The position numbers and the translations under genes are program-made. Below, piece by piece: positions 1-19,586 of a stretch of DNA of 20,526 nt; position 1 is the first letter of the stretch; each line of letters opens with the position of its first letter. The DNA lies in the IMG/VR virus record IMGVR_UViG_3300050027_000104, positions 1-20,526 of that record; one strand, written 5' to 3'. This DNA comes from a virus. Below the pieces are notes generated by a model. The model was not told the DNA's origin, did not search any database, and was given only the letters and a program-made list of their open reading frames with translations.

Positions 1-159
1 ATCGGCGAGTACGAAGCCGGCGTCGATCATCCGCTGGATGTTGTCCTGCGAAACCTGGGCGTCGCCCGTTTCCAGGGCAAGGTCTTGGATCGCCGGCTGG
101 TAGCTCGTCACGCCGTCGCGGAAAGCCTGCAACATGGGACTAATCGGATCGAGCAGCAT
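1..159 (-). CDS. Unknown protein, N-terminal fragment running off the left edge
   Basis: An open frame reads leftward from an ATG at 159-157 through 53 codons to position 1 without a stop, so only the N-terminus is in the window. It begins MLLDPISPMLQAF and looks soluble and mostly helical. There is no signal peptide, membrane segment or motif that I recognise. A good ribosome binding site (AGGAG, about 8 nt upstream) and a promoter-like element at 192-219 on the same strand support this start. It is divergent from the recombinase-like gene at 297, so the two share a 137-bp control region. The function is unknown. Confidence 0.6.
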   Translation of the reverse strand, partial: MLLDPISPMLQAFRDGVTSYQPAIQDLALETGDAQVSQDNIQRMIDAGFVLAD

Positions 160-238: not shown

Positions 239-276
239 TTGACTTCGCTTTAATGTGGTGTAAGGTTGAGGTAGAC
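239..276 (+). promoter_or_regulatory. Promoter-like element P1 upstream of the first recombinase
   Basis: TTGACT at 239-244, a 16-nt spacer and TAAGGT at 261-266, followed by GTAGAC starting at 271. The distance from TTGACT to GTAGA is 32 nt, exactly as in the two elements at 1555 and 1630. The -35 box is strong and the -10 box weak. The gene starts at 297. Confidence 0.5.
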
Positions 277-296
277 ACCGAAACCACGAGGAACAC

Positions 297-1046
297 ATGA
301 AGCGTTACATCGCCTATTTCCGCGTTTGGCCCAAGAAGAGCCCTTCTTTCGTGGAGCTTTCCGCTCAAGTCCTGGAAGCCGACCGTTTCGTCAGCTACAA
401 CAAGGGCGAACTTCTGGCCACCTACACCGATCACGAAACCCCCAAACCCGGCCACCGGCCGGAATTCGCCAAGGCCATCGAGCACGCGATTCGGTCTGAG
501 GCTGCGTTAGTCATTGTTCACCTGGGGCGGCTCGCCCGCAATGTCACGGTCACGCGGATGTTGCTGGAGAGCCATGTTGATTTCGTGTGCCTGGACGCCC
601 AGGAGATCAACAGCCGGACCATCCACATCATAGCAAACGTGGCCGAGGAGGAAACCCGCAAGGTCAGCGACCGGGCCAAAACCGCCTTGGCGGCGGCGAA
701 GGCGCGGGGCGTGAAACTCGGCTCCGCCGATCCTCGGGTCAAGAAGGCGAACTACCGAAAGGGGACTTTCAAGGCCATCGCGGCGGCGGCCAAGAAGAGA
801 CACGAGCAGACCAAGTTGACCTACGCCTACCTGATGCCGGAGATTCGGACGCGGCGGGAACGGGGCGAGACGCTGCCGGAGATCATGGACTGGCTGAACG
901 CGGCCGGCCACAAGACCACGGCCGGCAAGCCCTTCACCCAGACGGCCGTGTGGCGGCTGATCGACCGCTACCTGGGCAAGGAATGGCTCGGCAACATCAA
1001 GAAACAGACCCACGGGCACAAGGTCAAGCTGAGGGTTGTTTCCTAA
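297..1046 (+). CDS. Degenerate serine recombinase (resolvase family) lacking the catalytic serine
   Basis: A 249-aa protein of the small serine recombinase family. The N-terminal catalytic fold is recognisable from IAYFRV at residues 5-10, GRLARN at 77-82 and the long helix region ALAAAKARGVKLGS. A C-terminal HTH-like region follows (GETLPEIMDWLNAAGHKTT, then a WRLIDRYLGK segment). In resolvases the serine nucleophile follows Y-x-R-V. Here that position is Trp11 (codon TGG), and the conserved Asp of the D-R-L-A-R motif is Gly77. The arginines equivalent to the active-site ones (Arg9, Arg78, Arg81) are kept. The paralogue at 1685 keeps the Ser and Asp. The start has GAGGA 4 nt upstream. I infer a DNA-binding protein that cannot cut, perhaps a regulator or a partner of the intact recombinase. 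The family call is sure; the role is not. Confidence 0.85.
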   Translation: MKRYIAYFRVWPKKSPSFVELSAQVLEADRFVSYNKGELLATYTDHETPKPGHRPEFAKAIEHAIRSEAALVIVHLGRLARNVTVTRMLLESHVDFVCLDAQEINSRTIHIIANVAEEETRKVSDRAKTALAAAKARGVKLGSADPRVKKANYRKGTFKAIAAAAKKRHEQTKLTYAYLMPEIRTRRERGETLPEIMDWLNAAGHKTTAGKPFTQTAVWRLIDRYLGKEWLGNIKKQTHGHKVKLRVVS

Positions 1047-1066: not shown

Positions 1067-1489
1067 ATGAAACCGAAACGCAAAGGTGAAACGCGGGCGA
1101 CGATGGCGGCGAAGTTCCCGCCGCCGGACGAGTTCCATTGGCGGGCCGGCCCCTACCGCGCCCCCAAGGTCAAGGTCGGCGCAGTCCTGCGCGACGAGTA
1201 TCGGGGCGAGAACGTGCGGGTAGAGGGCATGACCGAGGCACCCATTCCCTGGCCGGGGATCGACTACAAAAGGGGCGAACGCCTGCTGCCGGTCCTCTGC
1301 GGCGACCTGGTGCGGGCCGTCTGCGAGGAGGATGAATTGACGGTCGCCTACTACTGGAACGTGACCCGCTACATGGTCGAGCAGTGGAAGCGGGCGATCT
1401 CCAAGGCCCACACGTCCAACGGCGTCTTCGCCGGCCTGGCGCTGAAGCGGAACGATCCCGAGTTCCGCCAGCGGTTCGGGTACAAGTAA
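1067..1489 (+). CDS. Hypothetical protein with a helix-turn-helix-like C-terminus
   Basis: A 140-aa protein if the ATG at 1067 is used. An in-frame ATG at 1103 is an alternative, since AAAGGTGA lies about 13 nt before it. The middle holds a Pro/Gly-rich segment (APIPWPGIDY), then LLPVLCGDLVRAVCEED. The segment ELTVAYYWNVTRYMVEQWKR has the spacing of a helix-turn-helix (an Ala-containing first helix, a WNVT turn, a VEQWKR recognition helix). From memory this layout resembles short proteins seen repeatedly in planctomycete genomes that end in a homeodomain-like HTH, but I cannot verify that. It lies 20 nt downstream of the degenerate recombinase and probably shares its transcript. A DNA-binding role is inference. 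Confidence 0.7.
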   Translation: MKPKRKGETRATMAAKFPPPDEFHWRAGPYRAPKVKVGAVLRDEYRGENVRVEGMTEAPIPWPGIDYKRGERLLPVLCGDLVRAVCEEDELTVAYYWNVTRYMVEQWKRAISKAHTSNGVFAGLALKRNDPEFRQRFGYK

Positions 1490-1554
1490 TTCTGACAACT
1501 GGGCCTGTATTTCAGGGCATCGAGCAGGTAGTTCGCTGGAAACGGCCTTTTCGC

Positions 1555-1592
1555 TTGACTTTCTCATCTTCTGTGATATGATTGATGTAGAG
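1555..1592 (+). promoter_or_regulatory. Promoter-like element P2
   Basis: TTGACT at 1555-1560, a 16-nt spacer and TATGAT at 1577-1582 make a near-consensus sigma-70-type promoter. GTAGAG follows at 1587, 32 nt after the start of the -35 box. It is the upstream member of a tandem pair before the second recombinase. A 10-codon ORF without a visible ribosome binding site (1601-1633) lies between P2 and P3. Confidence 0.6.
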
Positions 1593-1629: not shown

Positions 1630-1667
1630 TTGACTTGCATCTCTTCTATGATATGCATGGTGTAGAC
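1630..1667 (+). promoter_or_regulatory. Promoter-like element P3 upstream of the second recombinase
   Basis: TTGACT at 1630-1635, a 16-nt spacer and TATGCA at 1652-1657, with GTAGAC at 1662, again 32 nt from the start of TTGACT. P2 and P3 resemble each other along their whole length, including a TCTTCT tract and GATATG, so this is probably a duplicated control element. The GTG start of the recombinase is at 1685. Confidence 0.6.
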
Positions 1668-1684: not shown

Positions 1685-2461
1685 GTGAACAAGAAGCTCG
1701 TCCAGATCGTGGCTTATTATCGCGTGAGTACGAAGCGGCAAGGCAAGAGCGGCCTGGGCCTGGAAGCCCAGAAGGAAATGGTCCGCCAGTTGGTCTTGGC
1801 CCACGGCGCAAGTATCGTTGCCGAGTACATCGAAGTCGAGACGGGCAAATCGGCGACCCGGCCGAAGCTCTTGGAGGCGATCCACCACGCGCGGCTGACC
1901 AACTCGACGCTGGTGGTCGCCAAGCTGGACCGTCTCGCCCGCAATGCCGTTTTCCTGCTCACCCTCCGCGATTCCGGTCTTCCGCTGGTCTTCTGCGATC
2001 TGCCGGACGCCAACGAATTGACCGTGGGGATCATGGCCGTCGTCGCCCAGGCCGAGGCCAAGATGATCTCGGAGCGCACGAAGGCGGCCTTGGCCGCCGC
2101 GAAGGCGCGGGGCGTGCTGCTGGGGTCCGCCCGGCCCGGCCACTGGGACGGCCGCGAACAACTGCGGGGCATCAAGAAAGCGCAGCCCTTGGGCTCGGCC
2201 GCCAACGCCCAGCGGGCCAGGGACCGCTACCAGCAGGCGCTCATCCCCGAGATCAAGCGGCGGCGCGAGGCGGGCCAGACGCTCGACGAGATCGTGACCT
2301 GGCTCAACGGCCAGGGCTTCAAGACGCGGCCGACGAAACGCCGGCCCGAGGGCGGCGTCTTCACGCACATGACGATCTGGCGGCTGATCGACCGTTATCT
2401 GGGCAAGGACTTGCTGGGCAACGTCGCGCTGAGAATTCCAGCCTGCGCCGCCTGCAACTGA
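1685..2461 (+). CDS. Serine recombinase, resolvase/invertase family
   Basis: A 258-aa serine recombinase that would cut and rejoin DNA through a phosphoserine link. The active site is complete: AYYRVS with catalytic Ser15 and Arg13, and KLDRLARN with Asp82, Arg83 and Arg86. The long dimer helix follows (ISERTKAALAAAKARG). The C-terminal part (AGQTLDEIVTWLNGQGFKT, then a WRLIDRYLGK segment) resembles the first part of the Recombinase domain of larger enzymes, but the protein is much shorter than large serine integrases (450 aa or more). GTG is used as start, with GGAG 9 nt upstream. It is a paralogue of the degenerate protein at 297 and has its own tandem promoters. It could invert, resolve or integrate the element. 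The target site is not visible. Confidence 0.88.
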   Translation: MNKKLVQIVAYYRVSTKRQGKSGLGLEAQKEMVRQLVLAHGASIVAEYIEVETGKSATRPKLLEAIHHARLTNSTLVVAKLDRLARNAVFLLTLRDSGLPLVFCDLPDANELTVGIMAVVAQAEAKMISERTKAALAAAKARGVLLGSARPGHWDGREQLRGIKKAQPLGSAANAQRARDRYQQALIPEIKRRREAGQTLDEIVTWLNGQGFKTRPTKRRPEGGVFTHMTIWRLIDRYLGKDLLGNVALRIPACAACN

Positions 2462-2860: not shown

Positions 2861-4291
2861 ATGTATCTGCTCATTCAGAATCCCGGCGCAGCGCCGGTGG
2901 AAGGCTATACTCTGCTCGGCGTCAGCACGACGCGCAACTGCGGCGTGGCCGGCACCATCGGCCAGTTCGGCAGCGGGGCCAAACATGCCATCAACACCCT
3001 GCTCCGCGCGGGATTGAAGCTGTTGATCTACTGCGGCAAGACCCGTTTGGAATTCACGACCCGCGAGGAGACGGTCAACGACGGACTGGTCAGCAAGCCG
3101 ATCAAGCGCGTGGTCTGCAAACTCGGCGGCACCAGCAGCAAGACGCTCGACATGGGCTGGTGCCTGGACTTCGGCGCGATCGACTGGACCGACCTTTCGA
3201 TGGCCCTGCGGGAATTCGTGGCCAATGCCATCGACCGCACCGTGCGGGAGCACGGCGACTTCGTTCCTTCTTTGCTGAACGAAGAATTGCGGGTAGCGGT
3301 GGTCGAAGACAGTGCCGTCCGTGCGCGGGACGGCTTCACCCGAGTCTACGTCGAAGTCAACGACGCCGTGCAACGGTTCTACGGCGAGTTGCCCCGCCGC
3401 TTCCTGCACTTTTCCAGCAAGCCACAACTGGTCAAGGAATCCTTGTTGCCCAAGGCCGACCGGAACCTCAACGGCAAGCGGACGGCGATGATCTACAAGG
3501 AGGGCGTGCTGGTCCGCGAGATCGAAGAGGCGGAAGAGGCGTCGGTGTACGACTACAACTTCCACGAGGGCGAGTTGAAGCTGGACGAGTCGCGTAATTC
3601 GAGCGAGTACGAGATCAAGGGCGCGGCGGCCCGGCTCTTCCGCAAGGCCACGCCTCAGCAGCTTGCCCCGGTGTTCAAGAGCCTGGTCGCCCAGGAACCG
3701 AGCTACGAGGCGACCTTCGATTCGTACTACATGGCCCCGTCGTACTCGGACCCCGAACCGGGGCAGAAGGAAGCCTGGCAGCAGGGCTGGGAGTTGGCGG
3801 CCGGGCCGAACGCGGTCCTCTGTGACGCCAGCCTGGGCCACACGGCCGAGTTCGTCGAGAAGAAGGGCTTTTGCCCCAAGCCGACGAAGGCTCCATCCTG
3901 GGTCACGGCCGCCGCCCGTTGCGGCGTCAAGACGGCCGCCTCGGTCCTGGACGGCCACGAGAGCAACGGCAAGCAGATTCTCCCGGCGACCGACGCGACA
4001 ATCGAGGCGGTGGACATCGTGTGGTCGTGGCTGCAACAGGCAAACATGACGCAGGGCAAGAAGAAGCCAATGGCGGCGTGCTTCAAGGAGTGTATGCAGG
4101 CCGGCAGCGAGACGATGGGTTTTTGCCGCGATGGCATGGTCTACTTCAAGGAGGACATTGCCACGGCGGTGAACAAGTACCTCCTGCAAACGGCTGTGGA
4201 GGAGGTCGCTCATTACGTCACTGGGGCGACGGATATGTCGCGGGACTTCCAGAACTTCCTCATCCAGATCATCGTGGAGATCAAAGGGTAA
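2861..4291 (+). CDS. GHKL-like ATP-binding protein with C-terminal EExxH motif
   Basis: A 476-aa protein. ATG 2861 is preferred over the in-frame GTG at 2834 because AAAGG lies about 9 nt upstream. GQFGSGAK (residues 34-41) resembles the glycine-rich lid motif of GHKL ATPases. LREFVANAID (116-125) resembles their N-box, where Glu118 and Asn122 would act in catalysis and Mg binding. In standard GHKL proteins the N-box comes before the glycine motif, so the order here is reversed. No DxGxG G1 box is obvious. The C-terminus has EEVAH (447-451) and then TDMSRDF, like the zinc helix of a metalloprotease but with Glu in place of the first His. I have an unverified memory of similar ATP-binding proteins in phage accessory regions. 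The role is unknown; chaperone-like or anti-host functions are possible. Confidence 0.6.
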   Translation: MYLLIQNPGAAPVEGYTLLGVSTTRNCGVAGTIGQFGSGAKHAINTLLRAGLKLLIYCGKTRLEFTTREETVNDGLVSKPIKRVVCKLGGTSSKTLDMGWCLDFGAIDWTDLSMALREFVANAIDRTVREHGDFVPSLLNEELRVAVVEDSAVRARDGFTRVYVEVNDAVQRFYGELPRRFLHFSSKPQLVKESLLPKADRNLNGKRTAMIYKEGVLVREIEEAEEASVYDYNFHEGELKLDESRNSSEYEIKGAAARLFRKATPQQLAPVFKSLVAQEPSYEATFDSYYMAPSYSDPEPGQKEAWQQGWELAAGPNAVLCDASLGHTAEFVEKKGFCPKPTKAPSWVTAAARCGVKTAASVLDGHESNGKQILPATDATIEAVDIVWSWLQQANMTQGKKKPMAACFKECMQAGSETMGFCRDGMVYFKEDIATAVNKYLLQTAVEEVAHYVTGATDMSRDFQNFLIQIIVEIKG

Positions 4292-4535: not shown

Positions 4536-4871
4536 ATGGCAAAACGGCAGGCGAAGCACACAACTCCGGCCGAAAACGACCCGCAGGAACCCGTGATCGA
4601 CCGTGAGGCGTTCGACTGGGGCGTTCGTTTGACGGCCACCCCCTTTCGCGGGACAGATAAGCACGCCCTGGTGATCCGCGCCGAGGTCAGGAACTACCGG
4701 GCGGGCCGGGGCTCGGAGGTGTATATCACCTTTCCGGCCGCCTCCTTACAGACCCCCCTTCGGCTGCTTGATGCCCAGACGTGGCACGCGGCCCTGGGAG
4801 CCATCATTGACGCCACGCGCGTCGCGCAGTCTGAGTTGCGCGCGGCGGCAACCGGCGAGAAGGGCGGCTGA
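4536..4871 (+). CDS. Hypothetical protein
   Basis: A 111-aa soluble protein with a basic, disordered N-terminus (MAKRQAKHTT), a predicted beta-rich middle (WGVRLTATPFRG, ALVIRAEVRNYRAG, SEVYITF) and a C-terminal helix ending in an Ala/Glu/Gly tail. AGGAGG 8-9 nt upstream makes the start convincing. I recognise no family. It stands alone between two intergenic regions, so it may have its own promoter. I cannot assign a function. Confidence 0.65.
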   Translation: MAKRQAKHTTPAENDPQEPVIDREAFDWGVRLTATPFRGTDKHALVIRAEVRNYRAGRGSEVYITFPAASLQTPLRLLDAQTWHAALGAIIDATRVAQSELRAAATGEKGG

Positions 4872-5161
4872 ACCAGGGCCGGCGGCGGGCTTTGGTTCTG
4901 AACTTCTGTTTCGGAGGGCGTCTGGCCCTCTCTGGGCTTTCTCTGGCCCCTTTCTGGGTTTTCTCTGGCCCTTTGGCCCTCTTTGGTTGCCTTAGCGCGG
5001 CCAGCACAGGGGCTCGATCTTGGTAGGGCGTATAAACGTCCTGCCCTCGGCCGCTAAGCGCCTTGCCCGGCCGCTGGGCCGCATCGTCGAAATTCGAGGA
5101 ACCCTGAAAAAAAATCCGATTTTGGGGGTCATGTATAGGGTAAGCAGTTCGGGCGCAAGCA
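4872..5161 (+). other. Intergenic region with low-complexity tract and GC-rich repeats
   Basis: This 290-bp gap has no convincing gene. It holds the CTCTGG tract at 4921-4990, an imperfect small hairpin around GGGCGTATAAACGTCC near 5026-5041, two copies of CGGCCGCT about 5050-5080, and an A-run followed by TTTTGGGGG just before the next gene. It separates the accessory arm from the late block, so a late promoter or a recombination boundary could sit here. No clear -35/-10 pair stands out. Confidence 0.4.
4921..4990 (+). repeat. Degenerate CTCTGG/CTTTGG tandem tract
   Basis: About 70 nt built from imperfect repeats of the type TTTCTCTGGCCC. The 12-mer TTTCTCTGGCCC occurs twice (near 4938 and 4960), with shorter variants around it. 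The + strand is nearly free of A across the tract, which makes a strong base-composition asymmetry. Confidence 0.7.
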
Positions 5162-5716
5162 ATGAGTATGCAACGTGTCACCGACTTGGCCGACCCCCGC
5201 CGTTGCAAGGGCGCAAGCCTGGACGGCCAGTGCCAGAACTTCGCGGAAGAGGGGTCGGACTACTGCCGCGTCCACGGCGGCAAAGACCTGGTGCCCGCTC
5301 GACGCCTGAAGCAATACCTCTTGACCAAGGCCCAGGACCGCGAGCGGCTGGCCCAGTTTGCGGAAAACGACGCGCTGAAAACGCTGCGGGAAGAGGTCGT
5401 CGTCCAACTGGCCCAACTGGAACGGCGGCTTAGCCTCGCCAATCGGTCGGACGCCGAGTTCCTGGCCGCCTATCCCGAGGTCGAGAAGTCGCTGAAAACT
5501 CTCGCCTCGCTGAAGAAGGACAATTTCTCCCTGGAAACGAAGGCGGGAGCCACGCTCTCGCGGGAACAGGGCTTCGCGCTGGTCCGGTTGATGCTTGAGA
5601 TCATCGTGGACGAGTTGGAGGGCGTCCCGGACTACGAGCGGATCGTCGAGCGAATCACCGAGCGAATCCTGCCCACGGTCGAAGCGGCCGGCCACTCTGA
5701 AGTCGATCCCGCATGA
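5162..5716 (+). CDS. Zinc-binding helical protein, possible terminase small subunit
   Basis: A 184-aa protein. The N-terminus has a compact Cys/His cluster: RCKG, GQCQNF, then DYCRVHGG, giving three cysteines and a histidine that could hold zinc. This RC...C...YCR.HGG signature is common in phage proteins encoded just before the large terminase. The rest is strongly helical with charged repeats (ALKTLREEVVVQLAQLERR) and a long C-terminal amphipathic helix (YERIVERITERIL), consistent with an oligomer. I infer a DNA-recognition role in packaging, but seven genes separate it from the large subunit at 9494, so this is not certain. No strong ribosome binding site is seen. ATG at 5168 is an alternative start. 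The stop overlaps the next gene by 4 nt. Confidence 0.65.
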   Translation: MSMQRVTDLADPRRCKGASLDGQCQNFAEEGSDYCRVHGGKDLVPARRLKQYLLTKAQDRERLAQFAENDALKTLREEVVVQLAQLERRLSLANRSDAEFLAAYPEVEKSLKTLASLKKDNFSLETKAGATLSREQGFALVRLMLEIIVDELEGVPDYERIVERITERILPTVEAAGHSEVDPA

Positions 5717-5943
5717 ATCTCGTCTGGTGTCGCGTCTGTCGCGTCCAGCCCGCGATGTTCAACGAAGACCGTTGCGAGAATTGCTGGGCCGACGACCAGG
5801 ATCACTGCGACCGGCGACGGCCGGCCAACATCCACACAACGGTCAACTGTTCGCGGGAGGTGAACGATGTCCCAGTGCCGGCAAAACCCGTTCGTCCCCG
5901 ACGAGTTGAAGGCGGGGGACATCATCGGATTCAGCGGCGATAG
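5713..5943 (+). CDS. Small zinc-ribbon protein
   Basis: A 76-aa ORF starting inside the stop of the preceding gene (ATGA overlap, 5713-5716), a sign of translational coupling. The N-terminus carries two CxxC pairs (WCRVC, then RCENCW), enough to bind one zinc ion. The second half is basic and low in structure, and its last 77 nt overlap the next gene, whose own ribosome binding site lies inside this frame. Only the first 40 or so residues look constrained. The function is unknown. Confidence 0.5.
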   Translation: MNLVWCRVCRVQPAMFNEDRCENCWADDQDHCDRRRPANIHTTVNCSREVNDVPVPAKPVRPRRVEGGGHHRIQRR

Positions 5944-6469
5944 CTGGATCAGCGCGCTAGTGAACCTGGCGACCTATGGCATCCCGTTTTGGAGCTTGAG
6001 CCACGTCGGCGTTCTTGGGCACGCGGACGACGGACGACTGCTGCTCTTCGAGTCCACGCAACTTGACGGCCTGCCCTGCGAAATCACCGGCGAAGTGTTT
6101 CTGGGAACCCAGGCCCACAAGTTGGAACACGTCGTTGAGGTCTACAAAGGAAAGGTCTGGCGATACCCGCTCTACCGCCCGCTCTATCCGACCGAAGACG
6201 AACGACTCACCGAGTTTCTCATGGGGACGATCCACATGCCCTACGACAAGCTGGGGGCGATCCGTGCGGCGGGTGTTGGCCTTTCCTTTGTCGAGTCGTT
6301 GCTGCACCCCGACAACCTCAACTCCATCTTCTGTTCCGAGCTAACGGCTGCCGCTTACGCCGACGTTGGCCTCTGGGCGACCGCGAACGTGGCACGCTGG
6401 AGCCCCAATCTCTTGGCTCGGTGCCTGCGCTCTGGCGGGGTTTTACGCAGGCCGAGGAGACTGAAGTAG
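5867..6469 (+). CDS. Permuted papain-like hydrolase (YiiX/NlpC-P60 type)
   Basis: A 200-aa protein with the motif order of circularly permuted NlpC/P60-like enzymes. LKAGDIIGFSG (14-24) is the beta-barrel opening, LSHVGVL (44-50) carries the catalytic His46, and LFES (60-63) carries a likely acidic partner, Glu62. FCSELTAAAY (155-164) carries the nucleophile Cys156. Members of this superfamily cut amide bonds in peptidoglycan or act on lipids and other amides. In a phage, peptidoglycan cleavage during lysis or entry is the first guess. No signal peptide is seen, so export would need a holin-like partner. The start has a strong AGGTGA 5 nt upstream. The stop overlaps the next GTG by 1 nt. Confidence 0.75.
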   Translation: MSQCRQNPFVPDELKAGDIIGFSGDSWISALVNLATYGIPFWSLSHVGVLGHADDGRLLLFESTQLDGLPCEITGEVFLGTQAHKLEHVVEVYKGKVWRYPLYRPLYPTEDERLTEFLMGTIHMPYDKLGAIRAAGVGLSFVESLLHPDNLNSIFCSELTAAAYADVGLWATANVARWSPNLLARCLRSGGVLRRPRRLK

Positions 6470-6960
6470 TGAAGACAATCCCGCTGACGCAAGGCAAAGA
6501 GGCGCTGGTGGACGACTGCGACCATGAGCATCTAATGCAATGGAAGTGGCAGTACACTCAGCGGGTGGGAACGGGTTACGCGGAACATCAGCAAGCGGTT
6601 GACGGGCAGCCACGAACAATTCGTATGCACAGCCTTGTTGCAAAGCGGTGCGGACTCACTCGCAGCAAGAGCGTGGAGGTCGATCATCAAAACGGTGATG
6701 GCCTGGATAACCGCCGGGCTAATCTACGTCTTGCGACACGGGCGCAGAATCTAGCCAACAAGGGGCGTCTTCGGAATAACACGTCGGGCTTCAAGGGCGT
6801 CTATCCGCATTCACAGGTGGACAAATGGTGTGCCCAACTTGGGGTCGGCGGCCGGCGTCTTTACTTGGGCATATTCAGTGACCCGCGTGACGCCGCAAGG
6901 GCCTACAACGAAGCCGCGCTGAAGCACTACGGGGAGTTTGCATGTCTCAATCCGCTCTAA
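6469..6960 (+). CDS. HNH homing endonuclease with AP2 DNA-binding domain
   Basis: A 163-aa free-standing homing endonuclease starting at a GTG that overlaps the upstream stop (TAGTG). An HNH nuclease core is seen in RMHSLVA (52-58), VDHQNGDGLDNRRANLR (71-87, with Asp72, His73 and Asn81) and the following ATRAQNLAN. A C-terminal AP2 domain runs from SGFKGVY (106-112) through YLGIFSDPRDAARAYNEAA and would bind the target DNA. This HNH-AP2 pairing is a standard phage mobile gene. Base composition is visibly less GC-rich than the neighbours, consistent with recent arrival. The last 19 nt overlap the next gene. Confidence 0.92.
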   Translation: MKTIPLTQGKEALVDDCDHEHLMQWKWQYTQRVGTGYAEHQQAVDGQPRTIRMHSLVAKRCGLTRSKSVEVDHQNGDGLDNRRANLRLATRAQNLANKGRLRNNTSGFKGVYPHSQVDKWCAQLGVGGRRLYLGIFSDPRDAARAYNEAALKHYGEFACLNPL

Positions 6961-9493: not shown

Positions 9494-11167
9494 ATGAAGT
9501 TTGTGGACGAGTTGCGACAAGCCTTGGGAAAGGGATTAGAGAGCAGGAACCTGCGGTCGTGCAGCCGGTGGTCCGAACACCGGCGGGTGATGGGGGCACC
9601 CTTCAACGGTCCTTACCGCTTTAGCCGGCACCCCTGGTGCCGCGCGATCCACGACAGCAAGGCCGCCTGGACGATTGCCATGAAGGCCGCCCAGTTGGGC
9701 GTCACCGAGACGGGGATCAATCGGGCCTTCTTCACGCTTGACCAATTGAAGCGGGATGTGCTCTACGTGCTGCCCACGGCGGTGAACGCGGGCGACTTTT
9801 CCAAAGCCCGCTTCGCCACCGCGTTGAAGCTCAGCCCCTACCTGAAAGACCTGTTTGTTGACACGAATACCGTGGGGCTGAAATCGACCGGCACCAACGT
9901 CCTCTACATCCGTGGGAGTCGCGGCGACAGCAACTTGAAGTCCATCCCGGTGTCCGAGTTGGTCTTGGACGAGATGGACGAGATGGACACGCATTCGGTG
10001 TGGCTGGCGCTGGAGCGGTTGTCGGGGCAGATCGAGAAGCACATCCTGGCGATCTCGACGCCGACCGTGCCCAAGTACGGCATCCACAAGCTGTACCTGA
10101 CCAGCACTCAGGAACACTTTTGTTTTCAGTGTCCGCATTGCGGTCGTTGGACGGAGTTGGTCTGGCCGGATTGCGTGGAGATCATTGGCGAATCGGTCAA
10201 CGACCCGCGCTGCAAGGAATCGTTCCTCAAGTGCCGCGAGTGCAAGCACAAGCTGGAGCAGGAGGCCAAGCCGGAGTTCCTGGCCGGCGGCCGGTGGCAG
10301 GTGACGGAGCCGAACGTCTCGGCCGAGGAGTCGCGGGGCTTTTACATCAATCAGCTTTACTCGTCCACCGTGACGCCCTGCGAACTGGTGATCGCCTACC
10401 ATCGCGGATTGGGGGATGAAGCGGCGAACACGGAGTTCCATTGCAGCAAACTGGGCGTGCCGTTCATCGGCGAGGGTGCCCAGGTCACGGACGAGATGAT
10501 CGAGAACTGCATCAAGTCGCACTCGATCAACGACGCCCGGCCGCAGATCGGCGGCGACCGGCTGATAACGATGGGCGTGGACCAGGGGAAGACCGGCTAC
10601 ATTTCGGTCGTGGACTGGCTGTTCGACAGGCACCCCGGCACCGACATCAATGCGGCGGCCATCGGAAAGCTGTTGTGGTTCGGCAAGTTCTCCGGCGAGG
10701 AGTGGGGGTATCTCGACGAATTGATGCGGGAGTGGCAGGTCTTGGCCTGCGTGGTGGACGCCGACCCGTTCACCAACGATGCCCGCCGCTTCGCCAAGAA
10801 GTTCCACGGCTATGTGTGGCTGACGCGATACCGGCGGGGCCAGACCGCCAAGGAAATCTCGCTGAGCGAGGAAGAGACGGGAGCCCCGTTCGCCACGGTA
10901 GATAGGACGAACTGGCTCTCGTGTACTCTCGGTCGCTTCAAGAGCAATCCGCCACGCATCCTGCTGCCGCGCGACATTTCGATGACCTACCGCGAGCACG
11001 TAAAAAACCTAGTTCGCACGTACAAGAAGGACGACCGGGGCAATCTGGCGGCCGAGTACGTCAACACGGGTGCCGACCACTTTGCTCACTCGCTGTGCTA
11101 CGCCGACATCGGCCTGTCGCTGGCACCGATTTCGTCCGGCGGCGAGAACATCGGAAAAGTGACGTGA
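9494..11167 (+). CDS. Terminase large subunit, GpA (lambda-like) family
   Basis: A 557-aa DNA-packaging motor and nuclease. The ATPase half has a deviant Walker A, KAAQLGVTE (64-72), with the lysine at the front as in lambda gpA. It also has Walker B ELVLDE (155-160) and the coupling motif LAISTPT (185-191). A zinc finger is inserted (CPHC at 213-216, CREC at 247-250), typical of the GpA family. The RNase H-like nuclease half shows MGVDQGK (Asp363) and VVDADPF (Asp422), then GADHFAHSLCYADIGL near the C-terminus. It would act at the portal vertex. The length fits, if a little short for the family. No strong ribosome binding site is seen, so translation may be coupled to the ORF before it. Confidence 0.93.
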   Translation: MKFVDELRQALGKGLESRNLRSCSRWSEHRRVMGAPFNGPYRFSRHPWCRAIHDSKAAWTIAMKAAQLGVTETGINRAFFTLDQLKRDVLYVLPTAVNAGDFSKARFATALKLSPYLKDLFVDTNTVGLKSTGTNVLYIRGSRGDSNLKSIPVSELVLDEMDEMDTHSVWLALERLSGQIEKHILAISTPTVPKYGIHKLYLTSTQEHFCFQCPHCGRWTELVWPDCVEIIGESVNDPRCKESFLKCRECKHKLEQEAKPEFLAGGRWQVTEPNVSAEESRGFYINQLYSSTVTPCELVIAYHRGLGDEAANTEFHCSKLGVPFIGEGAQVTDEMIENCIKSHSINDARPQIGGDRLITMGVDQGKTGYISVVDWLFDRHPGTDINAAAIGKLLWFGKFSGEEWGYLDELMREWQVLACVVDADPFTNDARRFAKKFHGYVWLTRYRRGQTAKEISLSEEETGAPFATVDRTNWLSCTLGRFKSNPPRILLPRDISMTYREHVKNLVRTYKKDDRGNLAAEYVNTGADHFAHSLCYADIGLSLAPISSGGENIGKVT

Positions 11168-11179
11168 GAAGGGCCAGTC

Positions 11180-12979
11180 ATGCCTGACAGTGCGGTCATC
11201 AATCTGGTCGATTCGCGCCACCCCGGCTACCTCTCGGGGATGACCGACTGGCGCAAGTGGCGCTTGACCTACGATGGCGGCGACGAGTTCCGTCAAATCT
11301 ACCTGGAGAAGTTTTCCGGGCGGGAAGACCAGTTGGAGTTCAACGCCCGCCTCCAGGTGACGCCCGTTCCCAGGTTTGCCGGGGCGGCCATCAACGACAT
11401 CCGCAATGCCATCTACCAGCGGATGAGGGACATCACCCGCAGGGGCGGCAGCAAGGCTTACCAGAATGCCGTCGCTGGATTGAACCTCGGCGTGGACCGG
11501 CGCGGCTCGACGATGAACGCCTTCGTGGGCGTAAAGGTCTTGACGGAGTTGCTGGTCATGGGCCGGGTGGGCATCTTCGTCGATGCCCCCTGGGTTCCAC
11601 CGACTGCGACGCTGGCCAACACCGGCAACGTCGCGCCGTACCTCTATCGGTACGACATCGAAGACATCCTTAGCTGGACCTGCTCGAAGCCAGAAGCCCC
11701 CTCCGAGTTCCAGGCCGTGCTCTTACGCGACACGGTGATGCAGTTCGACCAGAGCTACTTCCTGCCGACTGTCCAGGTGCAGCGGTATCGCTACCTGTGG
11801 ATCGACCAGAACACCGGCAAGGTCAACTTGCAGTTCTACGACATCCAGGGAGCGCCGGTCGATCAAAACGGCCAGCCCGGCGGGGCTGTCGAGTTGGAAC
11901 TCAGCCGCATTCCGTTCGTGATGCTGGACATCGGCAACAGCCTCATCAAGGACGTATGCGGCCACCAGATTGCTTTGCTCAACCTCGGTTCGAGCGACGT
12001 GAGCTACGCCTTGCGGAGCAACTTTCCCTTCTACATCGAGCAGAAGGACTTGCGGGCGGTGGGTGCTCACTTGAAGCACGCCGCCACGGCGGACGGCACG
12101 GCCACCACGGGCGGCCAGGGCGCGGCTGAGACGGACATTCAGGTCGGCGCGACCCACGGCCGCAGCTACGACAAGGGAATGAATCCACCCGCCTTCATCA
12201 ATCCGTCCGCCGAACCGCTGCGGGCGAGCCTGGACTTGCAGGAGCGGCTCAAGCAGGACATCCGCGAACTGGTCAACCTGGCCGTGTCGAGCCTGGCGGT
12301 GCGGGCCTCGGCCGAGTCGAAGGTGATGGACAACCAGGGCCTTGAAGCGGGCCTGAGCTACATCGGCCTGTTGCTGGAAAGCGCCGAGCGGCAGCTTTGC
12401 GAGCACTGGGCGGCCTACGAAGAGCGAGTCGTCTCGAAACGCGAGATCGCCACGATCAAGTACCCGGATCGCTATTCGCTCAAGACTGACGCCGACCGGA
12501 TCAAGGAGGCGACCGACCTGACGAAGCTGATGAATTCGGTCCCCGGCCGCAAGGTCAAGCGCGAATTGTCGAAAGGGATCGTCCAAGCCCTCCTCGGCGG
12601 GAAGGTCAGCGTGGACGACCTGGCCGCGATCAACGAAGAGATCGACAACGCCCATTACACCAACGGCGACCCGCAGACGATCATCCTGGCGGCCCAGGCG
12701 GGACTGGTCGGCGAGAAGACGGGCTCCGTGGCCCTGGGCTTCGACGACGACGAATATCTGGCAGCCCGCGCGGACCATGCCGAGAGGCTGAAGGTAATCG
12801 CCGAGAGCCAAGGCGCGGCCGGAAGCAAGGGTGGCAGTGATCCGGCGGCGCGGGGCGTCCCGGACTTGTCGGCCGATCCCAATGCCGGGTCCGAAGAGAA
12901 GGCGGCCAGCCGCAACACCGATCTCAAAGGCACTACGGCCCCGCCGGTGCGCGGCCGAGGCCGCTTTGCGGGAGAATAA
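11180..12979 (+). CDS. Phage portal protein
   Basis: A 599-aa protein directly after the large terminase, where portals are found. The N-terminal third (GMTDWRKWRLTYDGG through DIRNAIYQRMRDITRRGG), the IPFVMLDIGNSL strand region and the long helical stem-like section (RASLDLQERLKQDIRELVNLA) fit portals of siphoviruses of the DUF4055-like kind. The C-terminal 60 residues are disordered and polar. The portal forms the dodecameric ring through which DNA is packed and which binds terminase and neck proteins. AGAAGG sits about 8 nt before the ATG, and the next gene starts 3 nt after its stop. Confidence 0.85.
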   Translation: MPDSAVINLVDSRHPGYLSGMTDWRKWRLTYDGGDEFRQIYLEKFSGREDQLEFNARLQVTPVPRFAGAAINDIRNAIYQRMRDITRRGGSKAYQNAVAGLNLGVDRRGSTMNAFVGVKVLTELLVMGRVGIFVDAPWVPPTATLANTGNVAPYLYRYDIEDILSWTCSKPEAPSEFQAVLLRDTVMQFDQSYFLPTVQVQRYRYLWIDQNTGKVNLQFYDIQGAPVDQNGQPGGAVELELSRIPFVMLDIGNSLIKDVCGHQIALLNLGSSDVSYALRSNFPFYIEQKDLRAVGAHLKHAATADGTATTGGQGAAETDIQVGATHGRSYDKGMNPPAFINPSAEPLRASLDLQERLKQDIRELVNLAVSSLAVRASAESKVMDNQGLEAGLSYIGLLLESAERQLCEHWAAYEERVVSKREIATIKYPDRYSLKTDADRIKEATDLTKLMNSVPGRKVKRELSKGIVQALLGGKVSVDDLAAINEEIDNAHYTNGDPQTIILAAQAGLVGEKTGSVALGFDDDEYLAARADHAERLKVIAESQGAAGSKGGSDPAARGVPDLSADPNAGSEEKAASRNTDLKGTTAPPVRGRGRFAGE

Positions 12980-13892: not shown

Positions 13893-14453
13893 ATGGCGCT
13901 CAATTTCGATTACTACGGCAAGCAAGAGGGCGACACGCCGGCCGAGCGGATCGCCGAGGCGACGAACTACTTTTCTTACCGGCTCCACGAAGTTGCCTGG
14001 AGCGCCGCTTCCGACTCAGACCGCGAAAAGGCGTTGATTGCCGCCCGAGGAATCATCGACGCGCTGAATTACAAAGGGGTCAAAGCGAGCGTTTATACGG
14101 TCTGCGGCTCGTCGGACCCGGACTCGTCCGGCGTGGACCTGACAGTTATTCAGGCCGCCGAGGCAAGCCAGCCCTTGGAGTTTCCGCGCGGCACGGACAC
14201 GGAGGTGCCCGAGGCCATCCGCATCGCTGAATACGAGATCGCCTACGCCCTCTTGGACGGCAAAGACCCGGAGATCGAACTGGAGAACCTGGCCATCAGT
14301 GCGATGGGCTACGGCACGGTCAAGACGACTTACGAGCGGGCGCAACTGCCCATCGAGCACATTATAAACCTCTGCCCCTCGTCAACGGCTTGGCGAATTC
14401 TGCGACCTTTTCTCAGGGACAGTGATGCCCTCCATTTGAGCCGCATGTCGTAA
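13893..14453 (+). CDS. Head-tail connector protein (DnaT-like/gp6-like)
   Basis: A 186-aa protein. ATG 13893 with GGGAG about 9 nt upstream is preferred over earlier in-frame codons. The pattern is that of adaptor proteins often annotated as DnaT-like: an N-terminal helix, ALIAARGIIDALNYKGVKA, then LEFPRG, AIRIAEYEIAYALLDG, DPEIELE and VKTTYERA. It ends in AWRILRPFLRD followed by LSRMS. Such proteins bind under the portal and start the neck. Its stop overlaps the start of a homing endonuclease by one base (TAATG). It lies upstream of the scaffold and coat genes, whereas connectors usually follow the coat gene. Confidence 0.75.
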   Translation: MALNFDYYGKQEGDTPAERIAEATNYFSYRLHEVAWSAASDSDREKALIAARGIIDALNYKGVKASVYTVCGSSDPDSSGVDLTVIQAAEASQPLEFPRGTDTEVPEAIRIAEYEIAYALLDGKDPEIELENLAISAMGYGTVKTTYERAQLPIEHIINLCPSSTAWRILRPFLRDSDALHLSRMS

Positions 14454-15088
14454 TGCACCACTTGTATCTCATTACCAATCTCGTCAACTGGAAGACGTAT
14501 GTTGGTATTACGACGAATCCACGGTTGCGTTGGACGAAACACAAGTACGGGCACGGCTCGCGTCTCGTGAGATTGGCGATTGCGAAGTACGGCATCGAAA
14601 ACTTTCGCTTTGCCGTGATTTTCAAGAGTCCTGATCGTGCTTGTGTTGAGTGGATGGAGCGACACGCAATTTCGGAGTGGAAGACAGAATCGCCACTCGG
14701 CTACAACCGCAATCCCGGTGGCGGTGGACCGCCTGTTGGACTTAAGCACTCTGCCGAGACTGTGGCGCGTCGCGCAGCCGCCAATCGGGGCAAGAAGCGA
14801 GAGCCAGGCTTCGGGCAACGCATGAGTGCTGTCAACAAAGGCCGGAAAAGAACGCCGGAGGTCCGACAACGCTGGTCTGAGTCGCGTCGTGGGCATTCAG
14901 CCTATCCACGACAACAAGAGACCGCGAGCCGTCTTCATAGCCGACCGGTCTCGGTTGAAGGCATTGCTTACCCCTCATTGAAGATGGCGTCGGCGCGGAC
15001 GGGCCTATCCTACTCGTCGCTAAAGAAGAGGTTTCGACGCTATGCAGAGTCCAACTCGTTTCCTACGGGTTGGGCGTACTTGTCTTAG
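14453..15088 (+). CDS. GIY-YIG homing endonuclease (first copy)
   Basis: A 211-aa free-standing GIY-YIG endonuclease. The nuclease domain shows LYLI (4-7), TYVGIT (15-20), Arg26, His30, metal-binding Glu69 and GYN (83-85). The middle has basic NUMOD3-like repeats (GLKHSAETVARR, KGRKRTPEVRQR). The C-terminus is a NUMOD1-like helix-turn-helix (AYPSLKMASARTGLSYSSLK). It would nick or cut intron-less alleles to spread itself. The start sits on the stop of the connector gene (TAATG). Lower GC and AT-rich codons (for example TATGTTGGTATTACGACG) differ from the neighbours, fitting horizontal arrival. Confidence 0.92.
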   Translation: MHHLYLITNLVNWKTYVGITTNPRLRWTKHKYGHGSRLVRLAIAKYGIENFRFAVIFKSPDRACVEWMERHAISEWKTESPLGYNRNPGGGGPPVGLKHSAETVARRAAANRGKKREPGFGQRMSAVNKGRKRTPEVRQRWSESRRGHSAYPRQQETASRLHSRPVSVEGIAYPSLKMASARTGLSYSSLKKRFRRYAESNSFPTGWAYLS

Positions 15089-18505: not shown

Positions 18506-18997
18506 ATGTCCGCCAATCCCAATTGGGCGCGCTGGGTGTTCGCCTCGGTGGCCACCTACTTGAAGGAAGTCGCCCTGGAGGCGGAACTACCGGCCATCGT
18601 CGAAGGTCTGGACGACCGGACCACCGAGTTCATGGAGGCCCCGGATCGCTGCGAAATCCGCATCACCGGCCCGTTCACCAGGGAGGCCAGCCACAACTAC
18701 TTCTACGTCGAAGTCGTGGTGAACGTGTTGTTCGTCAGCCACTACGAAGAGTCGAAGAACCAGTACGCCATCATCCAGAAGATGGGCGTATTCCAGGAGG
18801 CAATGGACGGACCCATCGCCGTCCGTCAGTACGGAAACCAACCCGGCGACGACGAACAGGTGCTCGTGGGTTGCCTCAAGCCGGTCCAAGGACGCAACGA
18901 CACGATCCGCGTCCTGCACTTCGGACAGGTCGATCCGACCCACCGCCTGAAGCAGAGCATGGTGGATGCCCGTTACCGGATGGAGGTTAGCGAGTAG
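18506..18997 (+). CDS. Probable tail terminator or tail-completion protein
   Basis: A 163-aa protein with GGGAGG about 9 nt upstream. It opens with WARWVFASVATYLKEVA and has alternating strands and helices (EIRITGPFTRE, YFYVEVVVNVLFVSH). It ends in a strand plus helix (DTIRVLHFGQVDP, RLKQSMVDARYRMEV). Size and position just before the major tail protein fit the tail terminator of siphoviruses, which ends tail polymerisation and joins the neck. The stop (18995-18997) is followed after one base by the ATG of a homing endonuclease that has inserted between this gene and the tail gene. Confidence 0.55.
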   Translation: MSANPNWARWVFASVATYLKEVALEAELPAIVEGLDDRTTEFMEAPDRCEIRITGPFTREASHNYFYVEVVVNVLFVSHYEESKNQYAIIQKMGVFQEAMDGPIAVRQYGNQPGDDEQVLVGCLKPVQGRNDTIRVLHFGQVDPTHRLKQSMVDARYRMEVSE

Positions 18998-18998
18998 C

Positions 18999-19586
18999 AT
19001 GTTCCTCTACGTGATAACCAACCGTGTCAACGAGAAGCAATACGTTGGTATTACAGACGATGTTGCTCGCCGAAGGCGATTCCACCTCTCTGGACACGGA
19101 TCGAAGCTGGTGTACCAGGCGGCCAAGAAGTACGGCAAAGATAACCTTCAATTGGAAGTCTGGTACGAAGGCGACGAGGACTGGATCAAGATGATGGAGT
19201 ACCGGGCCATTGTGATGCTCGAAACGCGAGCACCGCATGGCTACAACCTGACGCTCGGTGGGGATGGAACATGGGGTTTACGGCCAACTGCCGAGACACG
19301 CAAGAAGTTGAGCATGGCGCATACGGGTCAGGTGCCTTGGATGTCCGGGCGGCATCATTCTCCCGAGGCACGGCAGAAGATGAAGGAGGCATGGAGCCGC
19401 AAATCCAAGACAGGTGCCAGAAATCCGCGCGCCTGTTCTGTCGTGGTTGAAGGCACCGAATACGGGTGTATCAAGGATGCGGCTCTTGCTACCGGCATCA
19501 ACGTGAACACCCTCTACAACCAACTACGGCGTTATCAAAGGTCCGGCCTCTGGCCGGTTGGTTGGGGTTTCAAGACCCCAGTTTGA
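18999..19586 (+). CDS. GIY-YIG homing endonuclease (second copy)
   Basis: A 195-aa GIY-YIG endonuclease. ATG 18999 is used rather than 18966, which would overlap the upstream gene. GGAGG lies 12 nt upstream, still inside that gene. Motifs are FLYVI (2-6), QYVGIT (14-19), Arg24 and His29 in the next helix, Glu67 and GYN (81-83). A NUMOD3-like basic region (PTAETRKKLSMAHTG, SPEARQKMKEAWSRK) and a C-terminal NUMOD1-like HTH (CIKDAALATGINVNTLYNQL) follow. It shares architecture and scattered DNA identity with the copy at 14453 but is clearly diverged, so the two probably have different targets. Lower GC than its neighbours suggests horizontal spread. Confidence 0.92.
   Translation: MFLYVITNRVNEKQYVGITDDVARRRRFHLSGHGSKLVYQAAKKYGKDNLQLEVWYEGDEDWIKMMEYRAIVMLETRAPHGYNLTLGGDGTWGLRPTAETRKKLSMAHTGQVPWMSGRHHSPEARQKMKEAWSRKSKTGARNPRACSVVVEGTEYGCIKDAALATGINVNTLYNQLRRYQRSGLWPVGWGFKTPV

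Follow-up and report, generated by a model that had tools for sequence, protein, structure and literature searches.

We analyzed a 20.5-kb stretch of viral DNA, positions 1-20,526 of the virus record IMGVR_UViG_3300050027_000104, hereafter called the window. Its genes include terminase, portal, scaffold, major head and tail-like genes, a set that identifies the window as tailed phage DNA. Close to its beginning lie two genes for small serine recombinases, which we call A and B, with the gene orf140 between them and the start of a divergent gene, rev161, upstream of A (Table 1). A and B are each preceded by their own promoter-like site. The product of orf140 has no match in Pfam, PHROGs or NCBIfam, and the window contains no Rfam matches and no tRNA. 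Small endonuclease-like genes are scattered amid the phage genes, at 6421-6960, 14453-15088 and 18966-19586; one encodes an HNH endonuclease (E 8.5e-37), and two ORFs resemble GIY-YIG homing endonucleases by eye.

Table 1. Features of the recombinase locus and the terminase gene, with coordinates in the window unless another contig is named.
Feature	Position	Strand	Details
rev161, divergent gene (3'-truncated, start only)	1..159	-	tblastn with the complete L003 copy: 70% over 54 aa
Promoter-like sequence of A	239..266	+	TTGACT-16-TAAGGT, extended -10 (TG)
A, predicted catalytically dead small serine recombinase	297..1046	+	Trp11 at 327-329, Gly77 at 525-527
orf140, conserved small protein between A and B	1067..1489	+	accompanies A at each of the 15 loci
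Conserved non-coding box, (A)AGGGCATCGAGCAGGT	1513..1529	+	upstream of the B-side promoter-like site
Copies of the box in other contigs	L003 6235-6251 and 4225-4243; L030 1007-1025; G004 11247-11265		
Promoter-like sequence 1 of B	1555..1582	+	TTGACT-16-TATGAT, CTTCTG in spacer
Second promoter-like copy before B	1630..1657	+	39-nt direct repeat (1628-1666), 79% identical
B, catalytically intact small serine recombinase	1685..2461	+	GTG start; every catalytic residue present
Terminase large subunit	9494..11167	+	marks tailed phage; links all 18 contigs as one phage group

The frame of A is intact and encodes 249 amino acids. The original prediction, made from the sequence alone, was that this protein keeps the fold and arginines of a resolvase, that Trp11 and Gly77 stand in for the catalytic Ser and the conserved Asp, and that the neighboring enzyme at 1685 is intact; all of this is borne out. 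Residues 5-139 match the Pfam Resolvase family (PF00239; E 2.5e-12, 47.6 bits, cut-off 23.3), the AlphaFold2 model adopts a serine-recombinase fold (pLDDT 88.9), and the solved structures closest to that model are serine recombinases, including TP901-1 and resolvase catalytic domains. The arginines equivalent to gamma-delta resolvase R8, R45, R68, R71 and R125 are retained. A is 40% identical to B, and in the alignment of the two, codon 11 of A (Trp) falls on the catalytic Ser15 of B, the equivalent of gamma-delta S10, and codon 77 (Gly) falls on the conserved Asp of B, the equivalent of gamma-delta D67. With the residues needed for cleavage absent, A is predicted to be unable to cut DNA. Its C-terminal region contains predicted helices at 180-188, 193-202 and 215-225 with high pLDDT, and a match to the Pfam Recombinase family (PF07508) reaches 17.5 bits, under the cut-off of 21.1. 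The model of B likewise has the serine-recombinase fold (pLDDT 90.3).

To collect homologues, we used A, B and alignments of each as queries against viral contigs. The resulting A set comprises 15 distinct proteins, including that of the window, from 14 distinct contigs; one contig contributes two A-B pairs, and the near-copy contig L122 was left out of the count. No relatives of A were found in the bacterial genome contigs scanned. All A-bearing contigs and three others encode a terminase homologous to that of the window (61-94% identity), which places them in one phage group. The 103-kb contig G009 (IMGVR_UViG_3300050333_000165) carries A-B pairs at 1-2818 and 88944-92019, together with two related terminases, the second in two pieces, and is perhaps two phages joined in one contig. 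In G010, the terminase homologue at 68502-70157 has a single in-frame TGA inside a long frame, which may reflect an error or stop-codon recoding.

Across the A set, the conserved Asp is replaced by Gly in 15 of 15 proteins. At the nucleophile position, nine have Trp, two Gly and one Ser; the other three have a deletion of the active-site loop. The Gln of the Ser loop (gamma-delta Q14) is missing from every A and present in the B of the same contigs. The B partners retain Ser, Asp, Arg8, Arg45, Arg68, Arg71 and Arg125, each in 15 of 15. The nine Trp-type proteins come from the contigs with the closest terminases (85-94%). The single Ser belongs to L029, a protein that nonetheless shows the Asp-to-Gly change and no longer has the Gln. 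We infer that Asp was probably lost first and the nucleophile afterwards. R125 is kept in 15 of 15 A proteins, and R8 and R45 are kept in 12; both are lost in L042, L044 and L067. In three lineages A is without the active-site loop as well as two pocket arginines, which means that its function cannot depend on the pocket. The original prediction had asked whether homologues with the same neighbors conserve the Ser-to-Trp change or keep the serine. The loss is conserved, with Ser gone in 14 of 15, but Trp itself is confined to nine of 15. A sequencing error or lone mutation in the window is excluded by the conservation of the loss in 15 sequences.

Among six plasmid and phage relatives picked without selecting for motifs, Ser and Asp are kept in all six. 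A wider scan for B used patterns that contain the Ser and Asp motifs and is thus no basis for judging the rarity of dead copies. Some contigs additionally encode a tyrosine integrase or a large serine recombinase, making it doubtful that B is the only integrase. L042 has a third recombinase fragment (4662-6378) beside A and B, fused to a short upstream stretch with Cys/His motifs.

The 15 A proteins form one clade (support 99/91, recovered in 99% of 200 bootstrap trees) that is nested within the diversity of intact recombinases, and an intact B lies downstream at every A locus. The usual order is divergent rev161 followed by A-orf140-B, with A-B-orf140 in L029 and L031. rev161 flanks A in all contigs that reach far enough and occupies the same position in L003, L005, L006, L007, L025, L027, L029, L030, L042, L044, L067 and L121. 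Upstream of rev161 in L003 is a G+C-rich tandem repeat (3103-3550), in a stretch without genes common to the other phages. Two contigs, L043 (terminase 66%) and L047 (61%), have the lowest terminase identity to the window among the contigs compared, and each carries a single recombinase beside rev161 with all catalytic residues present. L041 has one intact recombinase near the contig end, with neither rev161 nor orf140 detected there. The simplest reading of these arrangements is that A arose by duplication, and that the copy in the old slot lost catalysis while the second copy, B, kept it.

The original prediction also took the intact frame of A as a sign that it is kept for a purpose, and named neutral decay as an observation that would count against this. 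Such decay is rejected: the frame is intact in all 15 proteins, and A is under purifying selection, with dN/dS of 0.19-0.45 (36 pairs, nine A genes) compared to 0.14-0.49 for B. The distribution of constraint in A is reversed relative to B. Over the nine closest pairs, mean identity in A is 0.57 in the catalytic N-terminal core and 0.82 in the C-terminal DNA-binding end, compared to 0.70 and 0.66 in B; in the recognition-helix region it is 0.93 in A and 0.80 in B. The core is thus the least and the DNA-binding end the most conserved part of A, suggesting that A is kept mainly to bind one particular DNA sequence. We therefore classify A, by its residues and their conservation, as a putative pseudo-recombinase that has been retained. 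Distances between A copies correlate with those between B copies (Mantel r 0.68, 0/5000 permutations), a result that is no proof of protein interaction since linked genes are co-inherited.

The promoter-like sites of A are of the extended -10, TGTAAGAT type and score 10-12 of 12 in 12 of the 13 A genes with upstream sequence, the exception being L044 with 9; the best scores in shuffled sequence were mostly 7-9. Most B promoter-like sites have the CTTCTG spacer. The 17-bp box between orf140 and B has the consensus AAGGGCATCGAGCAGGT, from which the window copy differs by one mismatch, and is present in all nine Trp-type phages with at most one mismatch in a 14-bp core. Three of these nine have a related copy beyond rev161. 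The box is a candidate binding site that we assign to neither A nor B. We do not claim that it bounds an invertible segment: the left copy has inverted orientation in two contigs but direct orientation in another, and none showed a flipped arrangement. We also set aside a palindrome beside the box, with a 2-bp center, which some contigs have and the window lacks. No dyad repeats occur in the window at 150-300 or 1480-1690, where the sole repeat is the 39-nt direct repeat. We could assign no DNA site to A or B with confidence and saw no recombination product.

A shares with the small serine recombinases (gamma-delta/Tn3 resolvase, Sin, Gin and Hin) the catalytic fold, helix E, the PF00239 match and, by prediction, a C-terminal helical region that would bind DNA. 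Like these enzymes, B has all catalytic residues. A differs from them in the loss of the nucleophile, the conserved Asp and the Gln, and in its constant pairing with an intact paralogue. In the Sin system, the dimer at regulatory site II is catalytically inactive, and synapsis at site II occurs via the DNA-binding domains (PMC2428073). The protomers bound at Sin site II, and at gamma-delta sites II and III, bind DNA and steer the reaction without cutting, and their DNA-binding domain matters most. A catalytically dead paralogue whose DNA-binding end is highly conserved would suit such a role. In Sin and gamma-delta, however, one active protein fills both roles; in the phages described here the dedicated non-cutting subunit could be the product of its own gene. 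We found no accessory site of the Sin/gamma-delta type at the A-B locus, where the box at 1513-1529 is only a candidate.

The original prediction proposed for A the role of a DNA-binding regulator or of an inactive heterodimer partner of B. The sequence evidence supports this in part and is compatible with a repressor, an accessory-site subunit and a mixed dimer alike. We judge the chances to be about even that A is a pseudo-recombinase derived by duplication that binds regulatory sites, controls B in the form of a dedicated non-catalytic dimer and probably has an effect on nearby promoters as well. A phage small serine recombinase would have duplicated, the copy beside rev161 losing Asp67 and then the nucleophile, and the second copy, B, retaining catalysis. 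A would still fold and very probably dimerize via the long helix E, and the constraint on its C-terminal domain suggests that this domain binds a fixed DNA sequence. The dimer would most likely occupy regulatory sites in the control region that spans from rev161 and A to B, where it may help or block assembly of the B synaptic complex, and it probably acts on local promoters too. A further reading, that these phages have split a homomeric recombinase into a catalytic B and a dedicated dead protomer A on accessory DNA sites, is tentative, and we place it somewhat below an even chance.

Alternatively, A could be purely a transcription regulator, a repressor or switch at the rev161-A region and the B promoter that stands outside the B recombination complex. 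In its favor, the control region at which A lies is divergent and has strong promoter-like sites, the DNA-binding end is the best conserved part of A, and the loop-deleted proteins are still retained; given a function that does not need the pocket, a plain repressor fits at least as well. Tn3-type resolvases repress their own promoters, which offers a precedent. However, an intact B from the same family accompanies every A, and the main lineages keep phosphate-binding arginines (R8, R45 and R125) that a plain repressor would not need. We consider a regulator-only role rather unlikely, if a serious contender. The retained fold and helix E, along with the 40% identity of A and B, would also allow A to be a poison subunit, forming mixed A-B dimers that bind the crossover site without strand exchange and hold recombination at a low rate. 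The recognition-helix regions differ, however (FTQTAVWRL in A and FTHMTIWRL in B), and the recognition helix varies more between phages in B than in A, so the two proteins need not share sites. Their separate promoter-like sites further suggest separate control, and we regard a poison subunit as improbable.

It is very unlikely that A is what is left of a duplicated recombinase undergoing decay. Its catalytic residues have been lost in several ways (Trp, Gly and deletion), as decay might produce, but the frames are intact across phages down to 72% terminase identity, dN/dS shows constraint, and the DNA-binding end is more conserved in A than in B. Equally hard to credit is an A that remains catalytic via a substitute residue. 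Some A copies have a Ser at position 15 or 17, and that of L029 has one at the canonical position; against this, the A proteins share no conserved Ser in the vicinity of the loop, all of them have Gly in place of Asp67, and the loop itself is missing in three.

The nearest dead relative of A known to us comes from another viral context. Vaccinia virus F16 is a serine recombinase for which catalytic inactivity has been predicted (Senkevich et al. 2011, cited in PMC11980589), and this poxvirus protein is reported to be targeted to nucleoli. F16 resembles A as a virus-encoded serine recombinase reported to be inactive, a likeness drawn from its description in the literature. We know of no paired active paralogue of F16. 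XerC and XerD, like A and B, are two paralogous recombinase subunits, but they are tyrosine recombinases and both are catalytic. In the literature that we searched, with incomplete coverage, poxvirus F16 was the only inactive serine recombinase found, and we came across no account of phages that pair a dead serine recombinase with a live one. In serine recombination the same protein normally cuts DNA and builds the regulatory complex. If the roles of A and B are indeed split, serine recombination would here show a natural division of labor. With a stable natural pair of this kind, cutting and regulation could be studied separately, and the pair would show how a recombinase becomes a regulator. 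The 15 pairs, together with the two phages with a single intact copy, provide a ready evolutionary series.

A is close to the upstream end of its contig, at most 2 kb away, in 7 of 15 cases (the window, L005, L006, L026, L029, L030 and L031), compared to 0.76 expected, and two contigs start exactly at the A start codon. This pattern suggests either provirus trimming at recombinase genes or assembly breaks.
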